Shown: positions 3,453-27,022 of the stretch, one piece after another | Layout: every line of letters starts with the position of its first letter | Numbering within the stretch: position 1 is the first letter of the stretch | Source of the DNA: Hymenobacter yonginensis | GTDB lineage: Bacteria; Bacteroidota; Bacteroidia; Cytophagales; Hymenobacteraceae | Direction of reading: 5' to 3' | DNA length: 64,000 nucleotides | NCBI RefSeq assembly: GCF_027625995.1 | Contig: NZ_CP115396.1 | Location: 1,426,001 to 1,490,000 of the forward strand | Translations under genes and position numbers: made by a program | Notes under the pieces: generated by a model | What the model saw: the letters and a program-made list of their open reading frames with translations, nothing else | The model's database searches: none | Told to the model about the DNA's origin: nothing

Positions 3453-4994
3453 ATGCAAAACACCCGTTACGCGCTGGCGCTGAGTGCCCTTCTTTCGGCC
3501 GCCGGAGCTTCGGCTCAGGTGACGCCTACCCCGCCACCCAGCACCACCCCGCCGGCCCCGGCGCCGGCGGCTCCTGCCCCCGTGGTAGCGGCCACCCCAC
3601 CGGCGCCCACCGAGTCGGCTCCGTATGGGCCGGGCATGAAGGTGAATATCTCGGCCGATGGCTCCAAGTATATCCGCTTCATCACTTGGCACCAGGTGTG
3701 GGCGCGCTACACTGAAAACAACACCGGCACGCTCCGGGCGCCCGGCAAGCCCCAGTCTGATCAGATAGACTTCGCCCTGCGCCGCTCGCGCCTTATCGTG
3801 CTGTCGCAGCTGAACCCGCGGTTTCTGGTGTACACTCACATCGGCATCAACAACCAGACGGCGGTGAGCGGAGGCTTTGCGCCGGCCGTGGATGGCAAGA
3901 AGCCCCAGCTGTTTGTGCACGAGGCCGTGGTGGAGTACAAGGTCAACAAGTACCTGAACTTGGGCGCCGGTATGCACTACCAGAACGGCCTCTCGCGCAT
4001 GACGCGCTCCAGCACCATCAACTACCTCACGCTCGACGCTCCGCTCACCAACTGGCCGGTTATTGAAGCCATCGACCAGTTTGTGCGGGGTATTGGCGTG
4101 TACGGCAAGGGCCGCGTGGGCAAGCTCGACTACGTGCTGTCGGTCAACGAGTCGTTCCTGACCAACCAGACCGGGGCCTTCAGCACGCCGCTGGGCCTGG
4201 GTACCACCACCGGCACAGGCGCTGCCGCCGTCAACCGCGGCACCAACGTGGCGCAGTACAATCCGCAGGGCACCAACCACATCTACCAGGGCTACTTCAG
4301 CTACGAGTTCCTGGATCAGGAAGCCAATCTGCTGCCGTTCAACGTGGGTACGTACTTGGGCGCCAAGCGCGTGTTCAACATCGGAGCCGGCTTCTTCTAC
4401 AACAAGGACGGCATGGTGTCGCGCTCCAGCAACAGCGTGCTCGATGCGGCGGGCATTGCCGCCGCCACGGCCGCCGGTACCAGCGCCTTCAATACTGTAC
4501 CGGTTGACAAGCACGACATTGCCCTGTTCTCGGCCGACGTGTTCTTCGATACGCCGATCAACAAAGAAACCGGCACGGCTTTCACGGCCTACGCCGTGTA
4601 CTACAACTACAACATGGGCCCCAACCACACCCGCTTCATCGGGGCCGCCAACCCTGGTTGGGGCACTGATGCCCGCCGTGGCAACGCCGTGCCGCACTCC
4701 GGCACCGGCAACGTGGGCTACGTGCAGGCCGGCTACCTGCTGCCCAAAAACCTGCTGGGCCCCAAGCTGCGGGTGCAGCCCTACGCCTCGCACCTGCTGG
4801 CCGGCTACGAAGGCCTGCGCAAGTCTGATGGCGAGCAACAGAACGTGAACATCTTCGATGCGGGCGCCAACTTCTACATCGACGGCCACAACGCCAAGTT
4901 CACGCTCAACTACCGCGCCCGGCCTGATTTCACCGACGTGAACAACGTGAACTACAAGCCGGAAATCACGCTCCAGACGCAGGTAGCCCTGTAG
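3453..4994 (+). CDS. Outer-membrane porin, phosphate-selective porin O/P-like
   Basis: The 513-residue product has a signal peptide (MQNTRYALALSALLSAAGASAQ), then a Pro/Ala-rich linker of about 35 residues (TPTPPPSTTPPAPAPAAPAP), then a long beta-barrel-like region with alternating aromatic strands. IDFALRRSRLIVLSQLNPRF and the C-terminal NAKFTLNYRAR segment fit the O/P porin group, which forms anion-permeable outer-membrane channels. The MHS-family transporter gene follows 119 nt downstream in the same direction, so the pair could carry a small organic acid across both membranes. That substrate is inferred from the neighbours; the barrel itself does not reveal it. Confidence 0.8.
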   Translation: MQNTRYALALSALLSAAGASAQVTPTPPPSTTPPAPAPAAPAPVVAATPPAPTESAPYGPGMKVNISADGSKYIRFITWHQVWARYTENNTGTLRAPGKPQSDQIDFALRRSRLIVLSQLNPRFLVYTHIGINNQTAVSGGFAPAVDGKKPQLFVHEAVVEYKVNKYLNLGAGMHYQNGLSRMTRSSTINYLTLDAPLTNWPVIEAIDQFVRGIGVYGKGRVGKLDYVLSVNESFLTNQTGAFSTPLGLGTTTGTGAAAVNRGTNVAQYNPQGTNHIYQGYFSYEFLDQEANLLPFNVGTYLGAKRVFNIGAGFFYNKDGMVSRSSNSVLDAAGIAAATAAGTSAFNTVPVDKHDIALFSADVFFDTPINKETGTAFTAYAVYYNYNMGPNHTRFIGAANPGWGTDARRGNAVPHSGTGNVGYVQAGYLLPKNLLGPKLRVQPYASHLLAGYEGLRKSDGEQQNVNIFDAGANFYIDGHNAKFTLNYRARPDFTDVNNVNYKPEITLQTQVAL

Positions 4995-5113: not shown

Positions 5114-6634
5114 ATGAACCAAAACCTACCGCAGCGCGACTCCGGAGCGTATTCCGGGGCCGCCCCCGTGGCCGGCACGGCCGGTGCCGTGACGCACGAC
5201 AACAACGACGTTTCGACCAGCAAGATCTGGCAGGTGATTACGGCCTCCTCGGTGGGCACCGTAATCGAGTGGTACGACTTCTACATTTTCGGCTCGCTGG
5301 CCGCCATCATCGGGCCGGTGCTGTTTGGCTCGACGGGCAAGATTGAGGACACCATTCTGGGCACGCTGGCCGTGTTCGGGGCGGGCTTTGTGGTGCGGCC
5401 GTTTGGGGCCGTGTTCTTCGGCCGCATCGGCGACATGATCGGGCGCAAGTACACGTTTCTGCTGACGCTGCTGATTATGGGCGGCGCCACGTTCGTGACC
5501 GGCCTGATTCCGAGCTACGACAAAATCGGCATTGCCGCCCCCATCATCGTGACCTTGCTGCGCTTGCTGCAGGGCCTGGCTTTGGGCGGCGAGTATGGCG
5601 GCGCCACCACTTATGTGGCTGAGCACTCGCCGGACAACAAACGCGGCTATTACACCTCGTTTATCCAGATTACGGCCACGGCCGGCCTGTTTCTGAGCAT
5701 TCTGGTGATTATCACCACCCGCAAAACCATGGGCGAGGACGCCTTCAAGGAGTGGGGCTGGCGCATTCCGTTCCTGTTGTCGGGTCTGCTGGTAATTGCT
5801 TCCTACTACATCCGCCGCAAGCTGCACGAGTCGCCGCTGTTTGCCAAGGCTAAGGCCGAGGGCAAGACCAGCACCAACCCGCTGCGCGAGTCGTTCGTGA
5901 ACCCCGTAAACCGCCGCCTCGTGCTGATTTCGCTGTTCGGCGCTACCATGGGCCAGGGCGTGGTGTGGTACACCGGCCAGTTCTACGCCTACTCCTTCAT
6001 GCAGAACACGCTCAAGCTCGACCTCGTGGACGCCTCGCTGGTGCTGTGCATTGCCCTGCTGATTGCCACGCCGTTCTTCGTGTACTTCGGCAGCCTCTCC
6101 GACCGCATCGGCCGCAAAAAGATCATCATGATGGGCCTGCTCTGCGGTGCGCTGTTCACCATCCCGATTTTCTACGGCCTTAAGGCTTTTGCCGGCCCCC
6201 TGACGGAAGTAACTGCCGCCACCGTGGATGCCAGCGGCAAAGCCGTGCCGGCCGTGATGAAAGCCCTGACGCCCAGCCTCGTGCCCATGACAGTGCTCAC
6301 CTTCTGCCTGGTGCTGTTCGTGACCATGGCCTACGGCCCGATTGCGGCTTACTTGGTGGAGTTGTTCCCCACGAAAGTACGCTACACCAGCCTGTCGCTG
6401 CCCTACCACATCGGCAACGGCGTGTTTGGGGGCTTCGTGCCGTTTATTGCCACGGCCCTCACGCTGCGCGCCGCGGCCCAGCCCGAAGGCACGCTGTTCA
6501 AAACCTACAGCAGCTTCGCCGGCCTGCTCTATCCGGTCATCATTGCCCTGATCTGCTGGTTTATCGGGCAGGCGTTGATGAAGGACGTGCGCAACGTGAA
6601 GCTGATGGAGGAAAACTCCGGCGATGTAAAATAG
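5114..6634 (+). CDS. MFS transporter, metabolite:H+ symporter (MHS) type
   Basis: The 506-residue product has about twelve membrane helices. The MHS-type opening (SSVGTVIEWYDFYIFGSLAA) and the MFS loop signature after helix 2 (GRIGDMIGRKYTF) are present and partly repeated after helix 8 (GSLSDRIGRKKII). RLLQGLALGGEYGGA in helix 4 is typical of the ProP/ShiA/KgtP group, which co-transports organic acids or zwitterions with protons. The first 35 residues are a cytoplasmic polar tail. A strong hairpin terminator follows the stop, so the gene probably ends the porin-transporter unit. With acetyl- and propionyl-CoA synthetase genes a few kilobases downstream, a short-chain carboxylate is the best substrate guess. 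Confidence 0.88.
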   Translation: MNQNLPQRDSGAYSGAAPVAGTAGAVTHDNNDVSTSKIWQVITASSVGTVIEWYDFYIFGSLAAIIGPVLFGSTGKIEDTILGTLAVFGAGFVVRPFGAVFFGRIGDMIGRKYTFLLTLLIMGGATFVTGLIPSYDKIGIAAPIIVTLLRLLQGLALGGEYGGATTYVAEHSPDNKRGYYTSFIQITATAGLFLSILVIITTRKTMGEDAFKEWGWRIPFLLSGLLVIASYYIRRKLHESPLFAKAKAEGKTSTNPLRESFVNPVNRRLVLISLFGATMGQGVVWYTGQFYAYSFMQNTLKLDLVDASLVLCIALLIATPFFVYFGSLSDRIGRKKIIMMGLLCGALFTIPIFYGLKAFAGPLTEVTAATVDASGKAVPAVMKALTPSLVPMTVLTFCLVLFVTMAYGPIAAYLVELFPTKVRYTSLSLPYHIGNGVFGGFVPFIATALTLRAAAQPEGTLFKTYSSFAGLLYPVIIALICWFIGQALMKDVRNVKLMEENSGDVK

Positions 6635-6652
6635 GCTGCCTGTTTCCGGCCG

Positions 6653-6701
6653 AAACCTACAAAATCCGCCGGGCCGTTGGTTCGGCGGATTTTGTAGGTT
6701 T
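6653..6701 (+). terminator. Hairpin terminator after the MFS gene
   Basis: A perfect 19-bp inverted repeat (6653-6671 and 6683-6701) has an 11-nt loop and ends in TTT; its A/T-rich outer stem could work in both directions. It lies 18 nt after the stop codon. Confidence 0.8.
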
Positions 6702-6753
6702 AAGCGCTGCCGGTACTGCTACCGGCCTCCTGCTACCAGCTCGTCTTCCCCGC

Positions 6754-7005
6754 ATGTCTGCTCCCTCCAAACCTAGCCCCGCACTGTCCTCCGTCCCGCC
6801 GCCCGACCGCCCAGAACAGCGGCTGGGGCAGCGCTTGCTGTTCGTGGCCGTGCTGTTCGGGGTGCTGCTCACGTTCCCGTTCCTGGGCACCTTCGACCGG
6901 GAAACGCGCATCGGCGGCATCCCCGGGCTCTACCTCTACGTGCTGCTCGCCTGGTCGGCGCTGGTAGCCCTGACCGGTTGGTTGGTGAGAAGAATTAGTA
7001 ATTGA
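6754..7005 (+). CDS. Small two-helix membrane protein, DUF3311-like
   Basis: The 83-residue product has a polar Pro/Ser-rich head followed by two hydrophobic helices (LLFVAVLFGVLLTFPFLG and LYLYVLLAWSALVALTGW). The linker GTFDRETRIGGIPGLY resembles the loop of DUF3311 proteins, which are commonly encoded next to sodium:solute symporters. That fits here, since the next gene has an SLC5 symporter domain 129 nt downstream. It may be an accessory subunit of that membrane sensor. Family assignment rests on length, the two-helix layout and this neighbour, so it is moderate. Confidence 0.65.
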   Translation: MSAPSKPSPALSSVPPPDRPEQRLGQRLLFVAVLFGVLLTFPFLGTFDRETRIGGIPGLYLYVLLAWSALVALTGWLVRRISN

Positions 7006-7124
7006 GAATTGACTGAGTACTGCAAGCACCAAGAGTTGCACCGGTATTTTGCTACCCGACCAATGCCCGTTCATTCACCTCAAAATCGCCTGAGAATTCT
7101 TCATTACTAATTCTCAATTACTAA
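6995..7124. repeat. 16-bp inverted repeat around the gap before the SLC5-kinase gene
   Basis: TTAGTAATTGAGAATT (6995-7010, running over the end of the DUF3311-like gene) is perfectly inverted at 7109-7124. The A/T-rich arms bracket about 98 nt and contrast with the GC-rich genes. They may fold in the transcript between the two genes; no function is evident. Confidence 0.7.
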
Positions 7125-7134
7125 GTAAAACCTC

Positions 7135-9885
7135 ATGCCCACCTGGCTCGTCATTGGCTTTTCGTTTGGCTACCTCGCTCTGTTGTTTGGGGTGGCGTAT
7201 GCGGCGGAGCGACGGGCTGGTTCGGCGCGGCGGAGCCTGGTGAGCAACCCCTACGTGTACGCCCTGAGCATGGCCGTGTACTGTACTGCCTGGACGTACT
7301 ATGGCTCGGTGGGGCGGGCCGCGTACTTCGGGCTGGAGTTCGTGGGCATCTACCTCGGGCCCACGCTCATGGCCCCGATGGCGTGGCTGGTGCTGCGCAA
7401 AATCATCCGCATCTGCCGGCTGCAGCGCCTCACCTCCATTGCCGACTTCATCTCGGCGCGCTACGGCAAAAGCGCCTGGCTGGGCGCCCTCGTGACGGTG
7501 GTGTGCGTGCTGGGCGTGGTACCCTATATTTCGCTGCAGATCAAGGCTATTGCCGCCTCCTTTGATATTCTGACCGGGGGCGGCGGCACGCTGCATGCGG
7601 CGGGCAGCGTGGGGGTGTCGTCGGCGTTTGCTACTACGGTGGCGCTGGCGTTTTTCACCGTCATTTTCGGGGTCCGCTCCATCGAAGCCACCGAGCGGCA
7701 TGAGGGCATGGTGCTGGCTGTGGCTTTGGAAAGCCTCGTGAAGCTGGTGGCGTTTCTGGCGGCTGGCCTGTTCGTTACCTACGGCCTGTTTGATGGCTTT
7801 GCCGATGTGTTTGAGCGGGCCGCCAAAGTGCCTGATTTGAGCCGGCTGTTTACGCTGCAGGGCGCTGGCACCGGCGGCAGCCAGTGGCTCACGCTGCTGC
7901 TGCTGAGCATGTCGGCCATTCTGCTGCTGCCGCGGCAGTTTCAGGTGGCGGTGGTGGAAAACGTCAACGAAAACCACCTGCGCAAGGCCATGTGGCTGTT
8001 TCCGCTCTACCTCATCGTCATCAACCTGTTTGTGCTGCCGCTGGCCTTTGGCGGGCGCCTGCTCGACGGGGCCGGCCAGCTCGATGCCGACACGTTTGTG
8101 CTGGCGCTGCCGCTGCAGGCGGGCCGGCCGTGGCTGGCGCTGCTCATCTACCTGGGCGGGCTGTCGGCGGCCAGCAGCATGATCATCGTGGAAACCATTG
8201 CGCTGAGCGTGATGATGAGCAACCACCTGCTGATGCCGCTGCTGGTGCGGGTGCCGGCCGCCCGCGCCGAGGGGCCGCGCTGGTTTGCCTACCTGGGCCA
8301 GGTGGCGCTGCACAGCCGCCGGCTGGCCGTGGTGCTGGTGCTGCTGCTGGCCTACGGCTACTACGTGGAAGTCAGCCACCTGCTGCCGCTGGTGAACATC
8401 GGGCTGGTGTCGTTTGCGGCGGTGGCGCAGTTTGTGCCGGTGGTGCTGGGCGGCCTCTACTGGAAGGGCGGCACCCGGCAGGGCGCCACGGCGGGCATTC
8501 TGGCGGGCTTCGTGGTGTGGTTCTACACGCTGGTGCTGCCCACGCTGGTCGGGCCGGAGCTGCTGCCCGACACCGTGCTGCGCGAGGGGCTGTTTGGCTT
8601 GCACTGGCTGCGGCCGTTTGCCTTGTTCCACCTCGAAGGTCTCGATTACCTGTCGCACGGGCTGTTCTGGAGCTGGTTTTTCAACCTGGCGCTGTACGTG
8701 GGGGTGTCGCTCCGGCGCCAGCCCACCGACCTGGAGCTGCACCAGGCCGACGTGTTCGTGGACGTGTTCCGGCACGGCGCCGGCTTCGAGGGGCGCGCCG
8801 GCTGGCAGGGCGTGGCGGCTTTGCCCGACGTGCGGGCGCTGCTGGCTGGCTTCCTCGGGAAGAAGCGCACCAACCAGGCGCTGCGGGCCTTCGAGGAGCG
8901 GTTTCCGGATGCCCACGCGCCCGAAACCGACGGCACACCCGCTCCGCCCCAGGCCGATCCGCGCCTGCTGGCCTACGCCGAAAAGCTGCTGGCCGGCAGC
9001 ATCGGGCCGGCGTCGGCGCGGCTGCTGCTGCGCTCGTCGGTAGGAGTGGAGGACATCAGCTTCGACAACGTAGTGGGCATCCTGCGCGAAAGCCAGCAGC
9101 TGCTGGAAGCCAACCGCCAGCTGCAGAAGCAGCAGCGGCAGCTGCAGCGCCTTACGCAGGAACTGCAGGCCGCCTACGACCAGCTGCAGGAGCTGGATCA
9201 GCACAAAGACGAGTTCCTTTACACCGTTACGCACGAGCTGCGCACGCCGCTCACCAGCATCCGGGCGCTGTCGGAAATCCTCACCGACAACCCCGACCTG
9301 GAAGAAGAGGAGCAGCACCGGTTTCTGCTCACCATCACCAAGGAGTCGGAGCGCCTGAGCCGCCTGATTACGTTGGTGCTGGACCTGGAAAAGTACGAGT
9401 CGGGCAAGGCCACGCTGGAAAAGGCCCCGGTGGACGTGGCCGACGTCATCACCGACGCGCTGGAAGCCATTGGCCAGCTCATGCGCGCCAAGCACATCCA
9501 CCTCGACCTGGCCGTGCCACCCGGTTTGCCGCCCCTTTCCGGCGACCGGGACCGGCTGATGCAGGTGCTGGTGAACCTGCTCTCCAACGCCGTTAAGTCG
9601 TGCCGCGCCGATGGCGACGGCCGCATCCTAGTGAGCGTGGAAACCCCCGCCGACTGTCTGCGCATCACGGTGCAGGACAACGGCAAGGGTATCGACCCGG
9701 CGTTTCACCAACTCATCTTCGACAAGTTCTTCCAGGCCCGCAACCAGACCATGCGCAAGCCCGAGGGCTCGGGCCTGGGCTTGGCCATCACCAAGAAAAT
9801 AGTGGAGCTGCACGCCGGCCGCATCTGGGTGGAAAGCGCCCCGGAGCAGGGCGCGCGGTTCTCGTTTGAATTGCCGGTTGTATGA
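7135..9885 (+). CDS. SLC5 (sodium:solute symporter)-sensor histidine kinase fusion, CrbS/CbrA type
   Basis: The 916-residue product begins with about 13 membrane helices of the sodium/solute symporter fold (residues 1 to about 540), including YCTAWTYYGSVGRAAYFG near residue 45. A soluble linker and a Gln/Leu-rich coiled coil (about 660-690) lead to a HisKA domain with phospho-acceptor His700 in THELRTPL. The ATPase domain has an N-box (LVNLLSNAVKS), G1 (DNGKGID) and G2 (GSGLGLAITKK). In the known CrbS and CbrA proteins this design couples solute sensing or transport to a two-component signal; CrbS with CrbR controls acs. A receiver gene and two acyl-CoA synthetase genes follow, which supports a CrbS-like acetate-sensing role, though the ligand is inferred. 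Confidence 0.88.
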   Translation: MPTWLVIGFSFGYLALLFGVAYAAERRAGSARRSLVSNPYVYALSMAVYCTAWTYYGSVGRAAYFGLEFVGIYLGPTLMAPMAWLVLRKIIRICRLQRLTSIADFISARYGKSAWLGALVTVVCVLGVVPYISLQIKAIAASFDILTGGGGTLHAAGSVGVSSAFATTVALAFFTVIFGVRSIEATERHEGMVLAVALESLVKLVAFLAAGLFVTYGLFDGFADVFERAAKVPDLSRLFTLQGAGTGGSQWLTLLLLSMSAILLLPRQFQVAVVENVNENHLRKAMWLFPLYLIVINLFVLPLAFGGRLLDGAGQLDADTFVLALPLQAGRPWLALLIYLGGLSAASSMIIVETIALSVMMSNHLLMPLLVRVPAARAEGPRWFAYLGQVALHSRRLAVVLVLLLAYGYYVEVSHLLPLVNIGLVSFAAVAQFVPVVLGGLYWKGGTRQGATAGILAGFVVWFYTLVLPTLVGPELLPDTVLREGLFGLHWLRPFALFHLEGLDYLSHGLFWSWFFNLALYVGVSLRRQPTDLELHQADVFVDVFRHGAGFEGRAGWQGVAALPDVRALLAGFLGKKRTNQALRAFEERFPDAHAPETDGTPAPPQADPRLLAYAEKLLAGSIGPASARLLLRSSVGVEDISFDNVVGILRESQQLLEANRQLQKQQRQLQRLTQELQAAYDQLQELDQHKDEFLYTVTHELRTPLTSIRALSEILTDNPDLEEEEQHRFLLTITKESERLSRLITLVLDLEKYESGKATLEKAPVDVADVITDALEAIGQLMRAKHIHLDLAVPPGLPPLSGDRDRLMQVLVNLLSNAVKSCRADGDGRILVSVETPADCLRITVQDNGKGIDPAFHQLIFDKFFQARNQTMRKPEGSGLGLAITKKIVELHAGRIWVESAPEQGARFSFELPVV

Positions 9886-21150: not shown

Positions 21151-22254
21151 TTACGATTTCATCTCCACGATGTTGGTTTTCGGGGCTACGGCGTTGCGGA
21201 TGCTCACCTGGCGGGCCAGCTCCTCGGCCAGCTGGGCGAAGACCTCGGCGGCCGGCGTGTTTTCCTGCAGGATGGCGGGCGTGCCCTGGTCGCCGTTTTC
21301 GCGGATGCTCTGCACCAGCGGAATCTGGCCCAGCAGCGGCACCTCGTGCTTGGCTGCCAGTCCTACGCCGCCGCCTTCACCGAAGATGAAGTACTTGTTG
21401 TCGGGCAGCTCGGCGGGCGTAAACCACGCCATATTCTCCACAATGCCCAGCACCGGCACGTTGATTTGCGGCAGGCGGAACATCTGCAAGCCCTTTTCGG
21501 CGTCGGCCAGGGCTACTTTCTGGGGCGTGGTCACGATGAGCGAGCCGGTGACGGGCACCGTCTGCACCATGGTCAGGTGGATGTCGGAGGTTCCGGGGGG
21601 CATGTCGAGCAGCAGGTAGTCCAGCTCGCCCCAGTCCACTTCCGTGATGAACTGCTTGAGGGCCGAGGAGGCCATCGGGCCGCGCCACACAATGGCCGAC
21701 TCGGCCGGGGCCAGGAAGCCGATGCTCATCAGCTTCACGCCGTGGGCTACCACCGGCTGAATGAGGTTTTTGCCGTCGGGGCCCTGAAACACGTGGGGCC
21801 GCTCGTCCATCACGCCGAACATGAGGGGCATGCTGGGGCCGCTGATATCGGCATCCACGAGGCCCACTTTGGCGCCGGATTTGGCCAAGGCAATGGCCAG
21901 GTTGGCCGTGACGGTGCTTTTGCCCACGCCGCCCTTGCCCGAGGCAATGGCAATGATGTTCTTCACGCCGGGCAGCAGGTCGCGGTTCTGGCGCATGGTG
22001 GTCACGCGCGAGGTCATCACAATCACCACCTCGGCGCCCGGGTCCACCATCGTGTGGATGGCCCGCTCGCAGGCGTCGTGGATGAGCTGTTTGAGGGGGC
22101 AAGCGGGCGTGGTGAGCACGACGGTGAACGACACGCGGCGGCCTTCAATCTGCACGTCCTCAATCATGTTGAGCGTCACGAGGTCTTTGCCCAGGTCGGG
22201 CTCCTCCACGTAGCTCAGGGCCTTGAGGACGGCTTCTTTGGTAATGGGTTCCAT
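21151..22254 (-). CDS. mrp: Mrp/NBP35-type Fe-S carrier ATPase
   Basis: The 367-residue product begins with a DUF59/MIP18-like domain (residues 1-90, ITKEAVLKALSYVEEPDLGKDLVTL) and continues as a deviant-Walker P-loop ATPase: IAIASGKGGVGKSTVTANLA, VDADISGPSMPLMFG and LLLDMPPGTSDIHLTM. These proteins carry Fe-S clusters to target enzymes in the cytoplasm. The C-terminal CxxC pair found in many Mrp/NBP35 proteins is not seen here. Start ATG 22254 is chosen because a -7 box lies 33 nt upstream and the 58-codon extension runs through repeat sequence. The NifU-like gene follows downstream. Confidence 0.92.
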   Translation of the reverse strand: MEPITKEAVLKALSYVEEPDLGKDLVTLNMIEDVQIEGRRVSFTVVLTTPACPLKQLIHDACERAIHTMVDPGAEVVIVMTSRVTTMRQNRDLLPGVKNIIAIASGKGGVGKSTVTANLAIALAKSGAKVGLVDADISGPSMPLMFGVMDERPHVFQGPDGKNLIQPVVAHGVKLMSIGFLAPAESAIVWRGPMASSALKQFITEVDWGELDYLLLDMPPGTSDIHLTMVQTVPVTGSLIVTTPQKVALADAEKGLQMFRLPQINVPVLGIVENMAWFTPAELPDNKYFIFGEGGGVGLAAKHEVPLLGQIPLVQSIRENGDQGTPAILQENTPAAEVFAQLAEELARQVSIRNAVAPKTNIVEMKS

Positions 22255-22287
22255 TATAGTCAGCGAAGAAAGTGCGGATGCAAAGCG

Positions 22288-22295
22288 CAAAGATA
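22288..22295 (-). promoter_or_regulatory. -7 box for mrp
   Basis: TATCTTTG on the minus strand, 33 nt upstream of the mrp ATG, matches TAnnTTTG. A TTG lies farther upstream (GTTGCGCAACC), but the spacing is loose. Confidence 0.5.
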
Positions 22296-22337
22296 ACCCG
22301 GAAACCGGGGCGGCGGTTGCGCAACATTGTTCCCATG

Positions 22338-22632
22338 GAACGTCATTCCGAGCATGTGGCGCATTAAGCCAGCGACGAGGAATTTCGCGTGCTGACGTTG
22401 TGGCCGTGGGAACGATGTAGAGACGCAATATTTTGCGTCTCGTCGTTGCTGACGTTGTTTAAGTGATGCGGTTCCGGTCGTTCAACGACGAGACGCGAAG
22501 TGTCGCGTCTCTACATCGTTCCTGCGAACCCAAAGTCAGCAACGACGAGACGCAAAGTATTGCGTCTCTACATCGTTCCTGTGAACCCGGCATCAGCACG
22601 CGAGATTCCTCACGCTGCTCGGAATGACGTTC
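22338..22632. repeat. Nested palindromic repeat cluster (family B inside family A)
   Basis: This fills most of the 391-nt gene-free gap between mrp and the LytTR gene. Outer family-A ends (22338-22352 and 22618-22632; inner parts 22386-22396 and 22592-22602) bracket a family-B inverted repeat with 45-bp arms matching at 44 positions (22409-22453 and 22535-22579), arm start GGAACGATGTAGAGACGC. The B loop holds a further diverged B half. The order suggests B entered A after A was in place. Confidence 0.85.
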
Positions 22633-22645
22633 TTTTTGGGGCAGA

Positions 22646-23344
22646 CTACAGCCCGAACTGCGCCAGCAGGGGTTCTTTGTGCTGCTTGCCGATGGGCAGC
22701 TTTTCGGGCAGGTCGTAGAGCTCGACTTCGTTGCCGCTGATGGCCCGGATGGCGTCGAGGCGCACGATGTACGACTTCTGGATGCGGATGAAGCGGCTGG
22801 GCGGCAGCTGGTCTTCCACGCGGCTCATGCGCAGGTAGGTGATGATCATCTGGTTTTTGAGCACGATGCGGATGTAGTCCTTCATGCCCTCGATGTAGTA
22901 GATTTCCTCGAACAGCACCCGGCGCAGGGAGTGGCCCTCCTTCACGAACAGAAACTGCGGCGCGGCGGCCACCGGGGCGGCCGGGCGGCTGCCCACCACG
23001 GCCAGGGCCTTGTTCACGGCCTTCATGAAGCGCGGAAACGACACGGGCTTCACCACGTAATCGAGGGCGTCGAGCTCGTAGCCTTCCAGCGCGTGGTGGG
23101 GCGAGGCCGTGACGAAGATGACGTAGGGCGGGTTGTGCAACGAGCGGATAAACTCCAGCCCATTCACCTGGGGCATGTTGATGTCGGAAAACAGCAGGTC
23201 GATGCGCTGCTGCTGGAGCACTTCCAAGGCTTCGAAGACATGCTCGCAGCTGGCTACCAAGTGCAGGCCGGGCATCTGGGCAATGTAGTCCTGCAGCAGC
23301 TCGCGGGCAAAGGGTTCGTCGTCGATAATCAGACAGTTAATCAT
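22646..23344 (-). CDS. LytTR-family response regulator
   Basis: The 232-residue product has an N-terminal receiver (acidic pair D8-D9, phospho-acceptor D54 in LLFSDINMP, K98 region DYVVKPVSF) and a C-terminal LytTR DNA-binding domain (about 130-232: FLFVKEGHSLRRVLFEEIYYIEG, then FIRIQKSYIVRLDAI). LytTR regulators bind direct repeats upstream of target genes. The start ATG overlaps the stop of the kinase gene 23341-24510 by four bases, so the two are translationally coupled. It is the last gene of a three-gene unit with two LytS-like kinases. The signal and targets are unknown. Confidence 0.92.
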   Translation of the reverse strand: MINCLIIDDEPFARELLQDYIAQMPGLHLVASCEHVFEALEVLQQQRIDLLFSDINMPQVNGLEFIRSLHNPPYVIFVTASPHHALEGYELDALDYVVKPVSFPRFMKAVNKALAVVGSRPAAPVAAAPQFLFVKEGHSLRRVLFEEIYYIEGMKDYIRIVLKNQMIITYLRMSRVEDQLPPSRFIRIQKSYIVRLDAIRAISGNEVELYDLPEKLPIGKQHKEPLLAQFGL

Positions 23345-24510
23345 AGCATTGGGGAGATGGGCAGGAGGAAAGCCGCAGCAGTAACGGCGGCGGCCGGGGC
23401 GAGGCGCAGGGCCAGGGCTACGCGGTAGGTGTAGGCGTCGGGGTCGTGGGTGAGGCGGAGCTGGTAGTCCGGCGGGGCATAGTGCAGGGCCAGGCGCTTC
23501 TGCACGTTGGCAATGCCCACCCCGCCTACTTCGCGCCGGGGCGCATCGGGGCTGAAGCTATTGCTGACCTCGAAGTGCAGCCAGCCATCGGCGGCCGTGA
23601 GGGAAATGGCCACCCAGGAAGCGTCGAGGCTGCTATCCACGCCGTGCTTGAAGGCGTTTTCCACGAAGGGGAAGAACAGCAGCGGCGTGACGCGGTAGGC
23701 GTCCAGCGGGCCGGTTTGCTGGTAGTCGATGCGCACTTTCTGGCCGTAGCGCAGCCGCTCCAGCTGCAGGTAGGCCGCCAGAAACTCCACCTCCCGCGCC
23801 AGCGGCACCAGCGCCGCATCCGACTCAAACACCGTGTAGTGCAGCAGCCGGGTGAGGTGCTGCACCATGTCGGGGGCGCGCTCGTCCTGCTTCACCACCA
23901 TCATATACAGGTTGTTGAGGGTGTTGAACAGGAAGTGCGGGTTCACCTGGGCTTTCAGGAAATTCACTTCCAGCTGCAGGTTTTCGCGCTCCAAGCGCAG
24001 GCTGTGGTTGCTGCTGCGGAGCAAAAACCGGATGAAGCGCAGCAAAATGGGTGGTATCACCGTCACGGCAAAATCGTTGAGGCCCATGCTCACGCTGCGC
24101 CACGAAAACACGCCGGCCCACAGGCTGCCATCGAGGAAGCGGTGCGCGTAGCTGTAGAGGTCCTTGGAGATTAGCCCGTAGCGGTCCAGCAGGGCGTAGC
24201 AGGCATAGGAGCACAGCGCCCAGAAGTAGTAGATGGCCACCAGCCCCAGGGCCGTGAGCAGCCAGCGCCGCCGCAGCAACACGCGCGGCAGCAGCACTTC
24301 CGAGAAGAAATAGTAGCTGCCGATAGTGGCCACCGCGTCCTTCAGCACGAAGCTCCAGGTTACAATCGGCGTCTGCCTGAAACTCTGGAAAACGTAGTAT
24401 TCAAAGCCCACAAACAGCAGCCACCAAGCCGCGTGCCGCAGCCCCCGACCGCCCGGCGTGGCGAAAAACCGGCTGGCGCGGGTGCGTGTATCAGCGAGCC
24501 AGCGGCGCAT
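23341..24510 (-). CDS. LytS-like sensor histidine kinase (catalytically complete)
   Basis: The 389-residue product has four or five predicted membrane helices in residues 20-170, then the LytS-type kinase core: QVNPHFLFNTLNNLYMM with the phospho-acceptor His, the ATPase N-box PFVENAFKHGVDS and the G-box VGGVGIANVQKRLALHY. All expected residues are present. It phosphorylates the LytTR regulator encoded next, with which it overlaps by four bases. It also overlaps the upstream, degenerate kinase gene by 20 bases. The extracellular part is minimal, so the signal is probably sensed in the membrane. Confidence 0.92.
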   Translation of the reverse strand: MRRWLADTRTRASRFFATPGGRGLRHAAWWLLFVGFEYYVFQSFRQTPIVTWSFVLKDAVATIGSYYFFSEVLLPRVLLRRRWLLTALGLVAIYYFWALCSYACYALLDRYGLISKDLYSYAHRFLDGSLWAGVFSWRSVSMGLNDFAVTVIPPILLRFIRFLLRSSNHSLRLERENLQLEVNFLKAQVNPHFLFNTLNNLYMMVVKQDERAPDMVQHLTRLLHYTVFESDAALVPLAREVEFLAAYLQLERLRYGQKVRIDYQQTGPLDAYRVTPLLFFPFVENAFKHGVDSSLDASWVAISLTAADGWLHFEVSNSFSPDAPRREVGGVGIANVQKRLALHYAPPDYQLRLTHDPDAYTYRVALALRLAPAAAVTAAAFLLPISPML

Positions 24511-25615
24511 CGGGCGGAAGTTGCAGGTGGAGGCGCAGGTGCACGCGGTGGGCGTCTTCGGTGAGGGCCACGGTGTGCCGGCCGGGGTAGAGCAGGGCTA
24601 GGCGGCGCAGGGCGGCGTCCACGGCCGCGTCGGGGCGGTAGGTGAGGGGTGCGGCGCTGGTGCGGGTCAGGGTGAACGTCACGGCGTCGGGCTGCACCGC
24701 CACGGTGCTGTGCAGGGTGGCGGCGGTGCCGGGCGGGGCGGCGTCGAGGCCGGCGCAGAGGCGCTCCAGAAACGGGTGCAGCAGCAGCGGCGCGAGCTGC
24801 TGGTGGGCGGGCGTGCCGGTGGTTTCGTGGGTGATGCGCACGGTATCGGGGCGGCGCAGGCGTTCCAGGGCCAGGTAGTCTTCCAGGAACTCCAGCTCCC
24901 GGCTGAGCAGCACCCGCTCGGTATCGGTTTCGTAGAGCGTATAGCGCATCAGGTCGGCCAGGTGCAGCACCACGTCACCGGCGCGGTCGTCGCGGGTGCG
25001 GGTAAGCTGGTGCAGGCTGCCGAGGGTGTGGAACAGAAACTGCGGGTTGATTTGCGACTTGAGGTAGCCCAGCTCCAGGCGCAGGTGGTTGCGCTCCAGC
25101 TGCAGCCGGCGGCGGTCCACCACCAGCGCGTAGGCCAGAAAGCTGATCAGCACCGGAAACAGACAGATGGCCAGCAGCCCGAAAAACACGCTCAGCTGCT
25201 GACCGGGGCTGAGGAGCCCGGCCCAGAAGCCTTCCACGTAAAACCCGTGCAGGGTGCGCCGCAGCACCCCCGACAGCGGCACGTACGCTTCGGCCAGGCG
25301 GGTGCCAATGTACATCCAGAACTGAAAGGCATAGAGCAGGGCCACCCCGCCCAGCAGGGCCCGGCCGTAGCGCCCGCGCAGCAGCCAGCGCGGAATAATG
25401 AGGTACACTAGGGCATTGAACAGCAGCACGGCGTAGCCCATCTGCAGCCCTACCAGCGGCCAGATGGGCCCTTCGAAGCGGAAGTTGGGGCGGTTGTTCC
25501 AGGCGAAGTAGAACCCGGCCAGTACCAGCCACAGCAGCGCCTGCAGCAGCAGCGTGGTGGTGCGGGTACTCGGGGCCGGCCAGCGCCCGGCGGCCCGCAA
25601 AACAGATTCTGGCAT
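24491..25615 (-). CDS. LytS-like pseudokinase partner
   Basis: The 374-residue product has the same layout as the next gene: five or so membrane helices in residues 20-165, then a LytS-type core. The key residues are missing. The phospho-acceptor motif reads SQINPQFLFHTLGSL, with Gln192 in place of His; the N-box region is LLLHPFLERLCAGLDAA, without the Asn; and no GxGL G-box is present before ALRRLALLYPG. The flanking helices (LVVDRRRLQLERNHLRLELGYLK and YLALERLRR) are kept. The frame is intact, so this looks like selection for a structural or regulatory role, such as a heterodimer with the active kinase. It is the first gene of the three-gene unit. A longer open frame to 26929 is antisense to another gene and is not used. 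Confidence 0.85.
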   Translation of the reverse strand: MPESVLRAAGRWPAPSTRTTTLLLQALLWLVLAGFYFAWNNRPNFRFEGPIWPLVGLQMGYAVLLFNALVYLIIPRWLLRGRYGRALLGGVALLYAFQFWMYIGTRLAEAYVPLSGVLRRTLHGFYVEGFWAGLLSPGQQLSVFFGLLAICLFPVLISFLAYALVVDRRRLQLERNHLRLELGYLKSQINPQFLFHTLGSLHQLTRTRDDRAGDVVLHLADLMRYTLYETDTERVLLSRELEFLEDYLALERLRRPDTVRITHETTGTPAHQQLAPLLLHPFLERLCAGLDAAPPGTAATLHSTVAVQPDAVTFTLTRTSAAPLTYRPDAAVDAALRRLALLYPGRHTVALTEDAHRVHLRLHLQLPPDAPLAR

Positions 25616-25744
25616 AGCAAAACAGCAGACCAAGTCGGGCTTTGGTGGTGTGGGACCCGCGCTTGGTCGAAGAAACTTCGGAAGCCTAAAGCTCTGCAAT
25701 TTCTTCGTTCCAGAATCTACCGCTCGCCAACTAAATCTTCCCCG

Positions 25745-27022
25745 ATGTACCCTTCCTTCCGCCTTTCGCTCTGCTCTTCTCCCGCCACTGCCGCCCGCCG
25801 TTTGCGCCTGGCCGCTGGCGTTGCGCTGGCCGGCCTGCTCAGCCTGCCCGCCCAGGCCCAGGACAGTACGCTCACCCGCCTCACCCACAAATACCAGTTT
25901 GCGCTGGAGCAAAAGGGTACCCAGTTTTCTGGGGCGGGCTGGGACAAGCTGCGGCAGGACATCGAGAAAAGCCAGCTGGTGCTGGTGGGCGAAGACCACG
26001 GCATGGCCCAGATTCCGCAGTTCACCCAGGCCGTGGCCCAGGTGCTGAAGCCGAAAGTATTCGTGGCCGAAATCGACAAGTACCAGGCCCGCGACCTGAC
26101 GCAGCTGGCCGCGCAGCCCGGCCTGCCCGTAGCCGTTGAGCGGAAGTGCCCGATGGGGTTTGCCTTTTACAGCTGGGCTGAGGAATTTGAGTTGGCTCGG
26201 GCGTTGCGGGCCCAGAATACGGCCCTTGTGGGGCTGGAGCAGGTGGGCTTTTTCGCGCCGGGCCGCTTCTACGCGCTGCTGGCCGAGAAAACCAAAAACA
26301 AGCAGTCGGCGGCGTATTTGCGGCAGCGGGGCGCGGCTTACCAGGCCCACAACCAGGCCGTGATGAGCACCAACCCCGGCCAGCTGATGGTGTACCGCCA
26401 CACGCCATCCACCCTGGACAGCCTCACGGCCCTGGCCCGCCAGGAAAGCCCGGAGGTGCAGCGCATGGTGAAGGAGTATATTACCAGCGTCCACATCAAC
26501 CAGACGGCTATCCAACCCAAAACCGGCCTCCAGAGCCACCAGGACCGCGTAAACCTGATGCGCCGCAATCTGTTGGCCGAGCTGCCCGCCTACCAGAAGC
26601 CCGGCCAGCCGCTGCCCAAAATGCTCTTCAAATTCGGGGCCGGCCACATGGGGCGCGGGGCCAGCTTCACGGGCGGCGTGTACGATGTGGGCAACCTGGC
26701 CCTGAACCTGGCCGAAATGCAGGATCAGAAGTCGCTGCACATCTTCATCATCGGCAAACAGGGCACCCAGAACAGCGGCTTCAATCTGCAGGATTTCAGC
26801 AAGAACGTGGCCACATATTCCAATGCTGATAGCGACATGATCCGTCCCTTTGTGGCCGCTACGCCGGCCGGCACTGCCTGGCAGGTGTTCGATGTGCGCC
26901 CCCTGCGCCGCGCCCTGCTCCGCGACCAACTGAAAATCAGCAGTTCCGAGCTACTGACGACCATCATGAACTACGATTACGTGGTCATCATCCCCAAAAC
27001 CACCGCCAGCCACAACATCTAG
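25745..27022 (+). CDS. Secreted EreA/ChaN-TraB superfamily-like protein
   Basis: The 425-residue product has a signal peptide (LRLAAGVALAGLLSLPAQAQ ends at about residue 39), and the core starts with LVLVGEDHGMAQIPQF, the GExHG pattern of erythromycin-esterase-like and ChaN/TraB proteins. Later conserved-looking parts are VAEIDKYQARDL, VGLEQVGFF and FKFGAGHMGRG, whose His fits the second active-site or ligand histidine of the superfamily. Such proteins are hydrolases or heme/iron-binding proteins, and the sequence does not decide between them. It is divergent from the pseudokinase gene; nothing nearby explains the job. Confidence 0.65.
   Translation: MYPSFRLSLCSSPATAARRLRLAAGVALAGLLSLPAQAQDSTLTRLTHKYQFALEQKGTQFSGAGWDKLRQDIEKSQLVLVGEDHGMAQIPQFTQAVAQVLKPKVFVAEIDKYQARDLTQLAAQPGLPVAVERKCPMGFAFYSWAEEFELARALRAQNTALVGLEQVGFFAPGRFYALLAEKTKNKQSAAYLRQRGAAYQAHNQAVMSTNPGQLMVYRHTPSTLDSLTALARQESPEVQRMVKEYITSVHINQTAIQPKTGLQSHQDRVNLMRRNLLAELPAYQKPGQPLPKMLFKFGAGHMGRGASFTGGVYDVGNLALNLAEMQDQKSLHIFIIGKQGTQNSGFNLQDFSKNVATYSNADSDMIRPFVAATPAGTAWQVFDVRPLRRALLRDQLKISSSELLTTIMNYDYVVIIPKTTASHNI

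Follow-up and report, generated by a model that had tools for sequence, protein, structure and literature searches.

Histidine kinases are typically homodimers. The kinases of the Fas system resemble AgrC, and FasA belongs to the LytTR class. DivL bears PAS domains and has Tyr at the acceptor position, and the genes for DivL and its partner lie apart; in this it differs from the protein described here. RetS–GacS is of another kinase class and is not known as the operon partner of a LytTR regulator. Reports of kinase heterodimers are called rare or few (PMC12675982, PMC9491836, both in excerpt). In the FasBCA system of group A Streptococcus, FasB and FasC interact by two-hybrid, the kinase domain of FasC is dispensable and FasC has been proposed to be a pseudokinase (PMC12675982, excerpt). 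DivL of Caulobacter is a histidine kinase homologue without kinase activity that acts on CckA (PMC4211667, PMC9491836, excerpts). In Corynebacterium, a frameshift pseudokinase form of ChrS, although dead as a kinase, raises output via the partner kinase (PMC9491836, excerpt). No LytS-type pseudokinase was found among openly licensed papers, where the hits dealt with pseudo-receivers and DivL, apart from a single rhizobial paper.

The window, that is, the whole stretch of 64,000 nucleotides of Hymenobacter yonginensis DNA analysed here, contains three adjoining genes on the minus strand, denoted A, B and C. Gene A (24491..25615, minus strand) encodes a LytS-type pseudokinase of 374 aa, gene B (23341..24510, minus strand) an intact LytS-type histidine kinase of 389 aa, and gene C (22646..23344, minus strand) a response regulator with receiver and LytTR DNA-binding domains. 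Gene D (25745..27022, plus strand), a putative target of C, is divergent from A and has a signal-peptide-like start as judged by eye. We interpret A as a catalytically dead LytS-family protein that has been kept as the non-catalytic subunit of a three-component system, and put the probability of this reading at about 0.6. By comparison of the components, FasBCA is the closest studied system to A–B–C. In both, a single operon encodes one regulator and a pair of kinase-like membrane proteins, and two kinase-like genes with one regulator are clustered in the window and in 28/28 orthologous loci (the B frame being broken in three). FasC keeps and needs His246 (PMC12675982, excerpt), whereas A has Gln there and has lost the N-box and G-box too. 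DivL resembles A, in our best reading, as an inactive kinase homologue working on another kinase. The likeness to RetS–GacS of Pseudomonas (named in PMC12675982 and PMC9491836, excerpts) is that pairing lets one kinase-like protein control another. ChrS differs, as it is a laboratory-evolved mutant and not an evolutionarily kept gene, and pairing of the dead form was not demonstrable there (PMC9491836, excerpt). The pairs BtsS/BtsR and YpdA/YpdB of E. coli, like B and C, join a LytS-type kinase to a LytTR regulator; they differ in having one kinase per regulator, and the available excerpts mention no pseudokinase (PMC5552118, PMC4847170). The Hymenobacter locus offers a kinase without an ATP site, and nearly always without an acceptor, that has been kept in evolution beside a kinase and a regulator in 28/120 congeneric genomes.

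The motif around residue 192 of A is LKSQINPQFLFH, with Gln192 at the position of the phospho-acceptor; the equivalent in B is LKAQVNPHFLFN, with His192. The N-box ENAFKHG of B is replaced by ERLCAGL in A, and the G-box region of A has no GxG where B has GGVGIAN. Read against B, these motifs agree with the sequence-only reading that had preceded this work, in which A was described as having Gln192 in place of the acceptor His, no N-box Asn, no G-box and an intact frame; the frame of 374 aa is indeed open. The Pfam His_kinase domain (PF06580) matches residues 181–257 of A with 73.2 bits and B with 86.2 bits (cut-off 25.2 for both). A therefore carries the domain by score while lacking the acceptor His and the N-box and G-box ATP-binding residues; as the N-box Asn and the G-box glycines are absent, A is a pseudokinase homologue and not a working member of the family. 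There are 14 PF06580 matches in genome G001 and 15 in G027; A is the sole one per genome without the acceptor His, which the 27 others have. The predicted model of A (18 rows, pLDDT 75.0, pTM 0.43) shows membrane and pairing helices together with an ATPase-like core that is reduced. Confidence is modest overall and lowest near the Gln192 helix, with residues 180–191 under 50. The predicted model of B is similar (pLDDT 74.2, pTM 0.45). The best solved-structure match of the A model is the GanS kinase (TM-score 0.36 by query, 0.59–0.61 by target), followed by other kinases, and GanS was also the only chain at E ≤ 0.01 in a sequence-profile search with A. In the ATPase-like part of A, residues P276, P281, E284, L286, R337, R338 and L339 are constant in 29/29 rows (window and 28 orthologues).

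Orthologues of A are present in 28/120 Hymenobacter genomes (E ≤ 2.3e-111, 55–97% identity). Among the matches listed, the remainder have 27–44% identity to A with E-values of 1e-46 or weaker, the best of these being B. Genome G053 has a partial second copy of A (75% identity) on a different contig; parts of the locus (L011) are doubled across contigs C107, C13 and C73 of this genome, and the doubling is probably an assembly split or a duplication. B (alignment search, E ≤ 1e-70) is found in exactly the 28 genomes with A and is absent from the other 92. B and then C lie in the same order beside A in 28/28 loci, a count that includes three broken or partial B genes (L048, L053 and L057), which may be assembly faults, and one C gene cut by a contig end (L011). 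Outside the genus, no A orthologue was seen in 200 genomes of the family (genus members included) or in 291 genomes of the order; among the matches listed for the family and order, scores above 560 bits are confined to genus members, and no other genus exceeds 173 bits. A scan of named records gave 17 loci with A orthologues, all from Hymenobacter, with H. rigui and H. norwichensis among the carriers.

Gln192 is found in 28 of the 29 rows and in 27 of the 28 orthologues. The exception is G024 (L048), where residue 192 is His with a CAC codon. In a tree of A alone (quick method), L048 is placed beside L047 (support 92), within a starred group of otherwise Gln rows; given this nesting, the His is most simply explained by a later reversion, and its presence shows that Gln is not strictly required. 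At this same locus (A at 6643-7749, minus strand), the only one with His192, B (5479-6636, minus strand) appears frameshifted just before the G-box in the assembly. The N-box position of A is Arg in 28 rows and Gln in one, with Asn in none, and GxG is absent from the G-box region in 29/29 rows. The frame of A is true to the family up to its end in 27/28 orthologues. In L053 (G015), the final residues of A (6539-7639) diverge as after a frameshift, and the start of B (7971-8699) is also frameshift-like. In gene C, Asp8, Asp9, Asp54, Thr79 and Lys99 are present in 29/29 rows; the protein matches PF00072 (78.1 bits) and PF04397 (66.9 bits), and so has both a receiver with its acceptor Asp and a LytTR domain. 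Its best NCBIfam match is BtsR, below the cut-off (115.9 vs 246 bits). The alignment that the sequence-only reading had called for shows the same residues lost throughout, and no orthologue retaining His and the N-box was found among the 28. These counts (Gln in 27/28, N-box Asn lost in 28/28, A and B in the same 28/120 genomes) lend strong support to the proposed unit, in which a maintained pseudokinase is paired with an active kinase and a single LytTR regulator. The gene overlaps that had been reported, 20 bases for A/B and 4 bases for B/C, are exact in the window, but the longer one is not fixed. A–B spacing varies over the 28 orthologues, the extremes being an overlap of 20 bases and a gap of 411 bases (gene starts in the relatives were chosen by script), and the 20-base overlap is common to the window and its four nearest orthologues only. 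A functional role for this overlap was rejected, as it is present in only 4/28 orthologues.

For 11 pairs of relatives, dN/dS is 0.12–0.32 for A and 0.08–0.33 for B. The mean pairwise identity (26 rows) of the helix part is 0.805 in A and 0.812 in B, that of the membrane part 0.603 and 0.565, and that of the ATPase part 0.560 and 0.673, respectively. By these estimates, purifying selection on A is about as strong as on B. The identity and dN/dS figures together indicate that A retains the parts that pairing and sensing would require, while the ATP-site region is relaxed, yet constrained. In a tree of 85 kinase domains, A forms a single clade (100/100) with a stem of 1.5 and short tips, and B forms a clade separate from A (100/99). 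The other kinases have long branches, so where A stands with respect to them is uncertain. One fast change followed by constraint would explain this history most simply. The sequence-only reading had described B as an active copy; B does keep the inspected motifs in 26/26 rows (the three further B genes being broken in the assemblies), but A is no recent copy of B, as the two share 34% identity over 269 aligned residues and fall in separate clades. The distances of A and B correlate at 0.88, a value obtained without an outside control gene that may reflect common descent alone. L048, L053 and L057 were excluded from the codon figures, the identity figures and the large tree, and L158, L159 and L129 were also excluded from the latter. 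Alignment A1 is without L053 and L057, A2 without L048, L053 and L057, A4 without L124 and the promoter alignment without L057; L011 was dropped from part of the motif and distance comparison.

In the region between A and D, ten-base blocks at −90, −60 and −40 from the start of A are conserved at 0.91–0.95, and the first 90 bases of A at no more than 0.88. The repeat ACCAA-N16-ACCAA (period 21) is located close to the start of A in the window and in 26/28 orthologous loci (25 in the promoter alignment, plus L057). In L044, the repeat is farther upstream, and in L053, the spacing between the repeats is one base shorter. In the window, the putative operator of C occupies 25640..25671 (plus strand), with TTGGT at 25642-25646 and 25663-25667. 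The sequence TTTCTTCG at 25700..25707 (plus strand), which lies 35 nt from where GGTCGAA of the second repeat begins, is a putative −7 promoter box of gene D. Over 34 copies, the geometry of the repeat is near-constant: a −7-like box TNNNTTTG starts exactly 35 nt after the GGTCGAA start in 19, and the box at that place is one letter off in 12 and two or three letters off in 3. YpdB binds a direct repeat, and LytTR sites consist of two repeats of 9–11 nt that are 11–13 nt apart (PMC4847170, excerpt). The ACCAA-N16-ACCAA repeat agrees with such sites in spacing only. We infer that the repeat is a candidate operator, to which C would bind.

A 14-base repeat pattern was too loose, as it matched genomes without A and its reversed control matched many; a 23-base pattern was used instead. 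With up to 2 mismatches, the latter is found in 26/28 A-carrying genomes and in 0/92 others, although, having been built from A promoters, it is to some extent bound to match A-carrying genomes. The informative part is therefore the extra copies and the absence elsewhere; all extra copies at this threshold fall in A-carrying genomes. The reversed 23-base pattern had no match in the 120 genomes. At exactly 3 mismatches, the pattern matches the A promoter in G008, one site away from the A promoter in each of G017, G024 and G064, and also the A-less genomes G007, G055, G080 and G092; all of these but the G008 promoter were treated as chance. At the G017 and G064 sites, neither D nor the barrel gene described below is present.

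Gene D matches no Pfam or NCBIfam family above the cut-off, and its best solved-structure E-value is 0.05. In L044, L050, L052 and L054, an outer-membrane barrel gene is in D's place with an operator copy upstream; in L048, L049, L053 and L055, the barrel gene is beyond D and has its own operator copy. The barrel gene of L057 is likewise next to A, and the repeat there is weaker (6 mismatches). Wherever D is absent beside A, an outer-membrane β-barrel gene is found instead (5/5 loci: L044, L050, L052, L054 and L057). The barrel gene is OMP_b-brl_3 by Pfam in L049 and L050, and the others were assigned by similarity (950–1259 bits). Weaker homologues (61–292 bits) without a site in L045–L049, L053 and L056 argue against the link to the barrel gene. 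Remote operator copies are located in G025, G045 and G120, each upstream of a DUF5700 gene, assigned by Pfam in L224 and L226 and by 67% identity in G045. The remote copies are at positions 3736, 3952 and 3639 of L224, L225 and L226, respectively; DUF5700 is a putative zinc peptidase family. The DUF5700 gene is present in 28/120 genomes; these include three further A-carrying genomes, in which no such operator copy was found. In the best reading, the three-component system would control envelope genes. Naming a putative operator and three putative target families puts the sign and mechanism of a natural pseudokinase within reach of one reporter and a handful of deletions.

Our data suggest that A, itself non-catalytic, partners and directs the working kinase B. 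A may activate or restrain B, and it could also influence C, whether directly or otherwise. With FasB–FasC as the precedent, we infer, on what we regard as sound grounds, that A and B form a heterodimer. A would pair with B through its helices. In the pair, ATP would be bound by B alone and phosphate would be carried by the His of B alone, which would make A a sensor or a brake and not an enzyme. The membrane part of A, or the association of A with B, would decide if B transfers phosphate to Asp54 of C. In its phosphorylated form, C would then bind the ACCAA-N16-ACCAA repeat and switch on the divergent envelope genes, these being the genes for D, for the outer-membrane barrel protein and, in certain species, for the DUF5700 protein. 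Second in rank, though in our view unlikely, is a RetS-like brake, which would pair with B or compete for C and hold the pathway off until a signal removes it. In its favour, an A–B pair that has lost both the acceptor and the ATP site on the A side would be incapable of trans phosphorylation, and RetS is among the first 30 structural matches of A (rank 28). However, the sequence does not discriminate a brake from an activator, and the membrane part of A is conserved at least as well as that of B, which fits a sensor of its own.

Third in rank, and distinctly improbable in our view, is a model in which A detects the phosphorylated regulator in the manner of DivL and acts back on B, with the ATPase-like part reused as a binding surface. 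DivL, in which an output domain has turned input sensor (PMC4211667, excerpt), occupies ranks 25 and 27 of the same structural matches, and the residual ATPase-like part has its own conserved positions (29/29), but it is also the least conserved part of A (0.56). Much the least probable is that A is a decaying duplicate heading for loss. The lost key residues, the variable A/B spacing and the frameshift-like end of A in L053 would fit decay; against it are the 28 orthologues, 27 with family-true frames to the end, and the dN/dS of 0.12–0.32. Moreover, no B genome without A was seen among the 120, and B is broken more often than A (L048, L053 and L057). A local error or a decaying copy was rejected on the orthologues and dN/dS. 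An alternative phospho-acceptor at His196 is unlikely, as His is present there in only 7/29 rows. His218 is invariant in A and in B (26 rows each) and, being equally invariant in B, is uninformative on an alternative acceptor.

Gene D is present in 52/120 genomes, 23 with A and 29 without A. Of the latter, the nine best-scoring genomes were examined (L243–L251), a non-random choice. In 9/9 of them, D and the Mrp-like gene are head-to-head, with approximately 120–370 bases between the aligned starts, and these sites have no A, B or C and no operator pattern at 2 mismatches. In the window, the gene that adjoins C (21151..22428, minus strand; an open frame as listed, with a putative start) is one that we take to be Mrp-like. 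Mrp is also found beyond C in 15/28 A-carrying loci; in the remaining loci, none was seen within the retrieved stretch. In quick trees of Mrp and of D, genomes with and without A interleave, with 6 changes each; the starred branches force at least 2 changes in the Mrp tree and 4 in the D tree. In the D tree, L032 (19% filled) and L034 (13% filled) are on an artefactual branch. This interleaving indicates that the cassette has probably been gained or lost as a block more than once. Tentatively, A, B, C and the operator might form a portable block with an obligatory dead subunit, in which A would be no accessory but the fixed half of a heterodimeric receptor, and the outward-facing operator would capture the gene next door. 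Across the 120 genomes, the cassette was never seen without A. The captured genes in such a scheme would be D or the barrel gene next door, and the DUF5700 gene via a remote copy.
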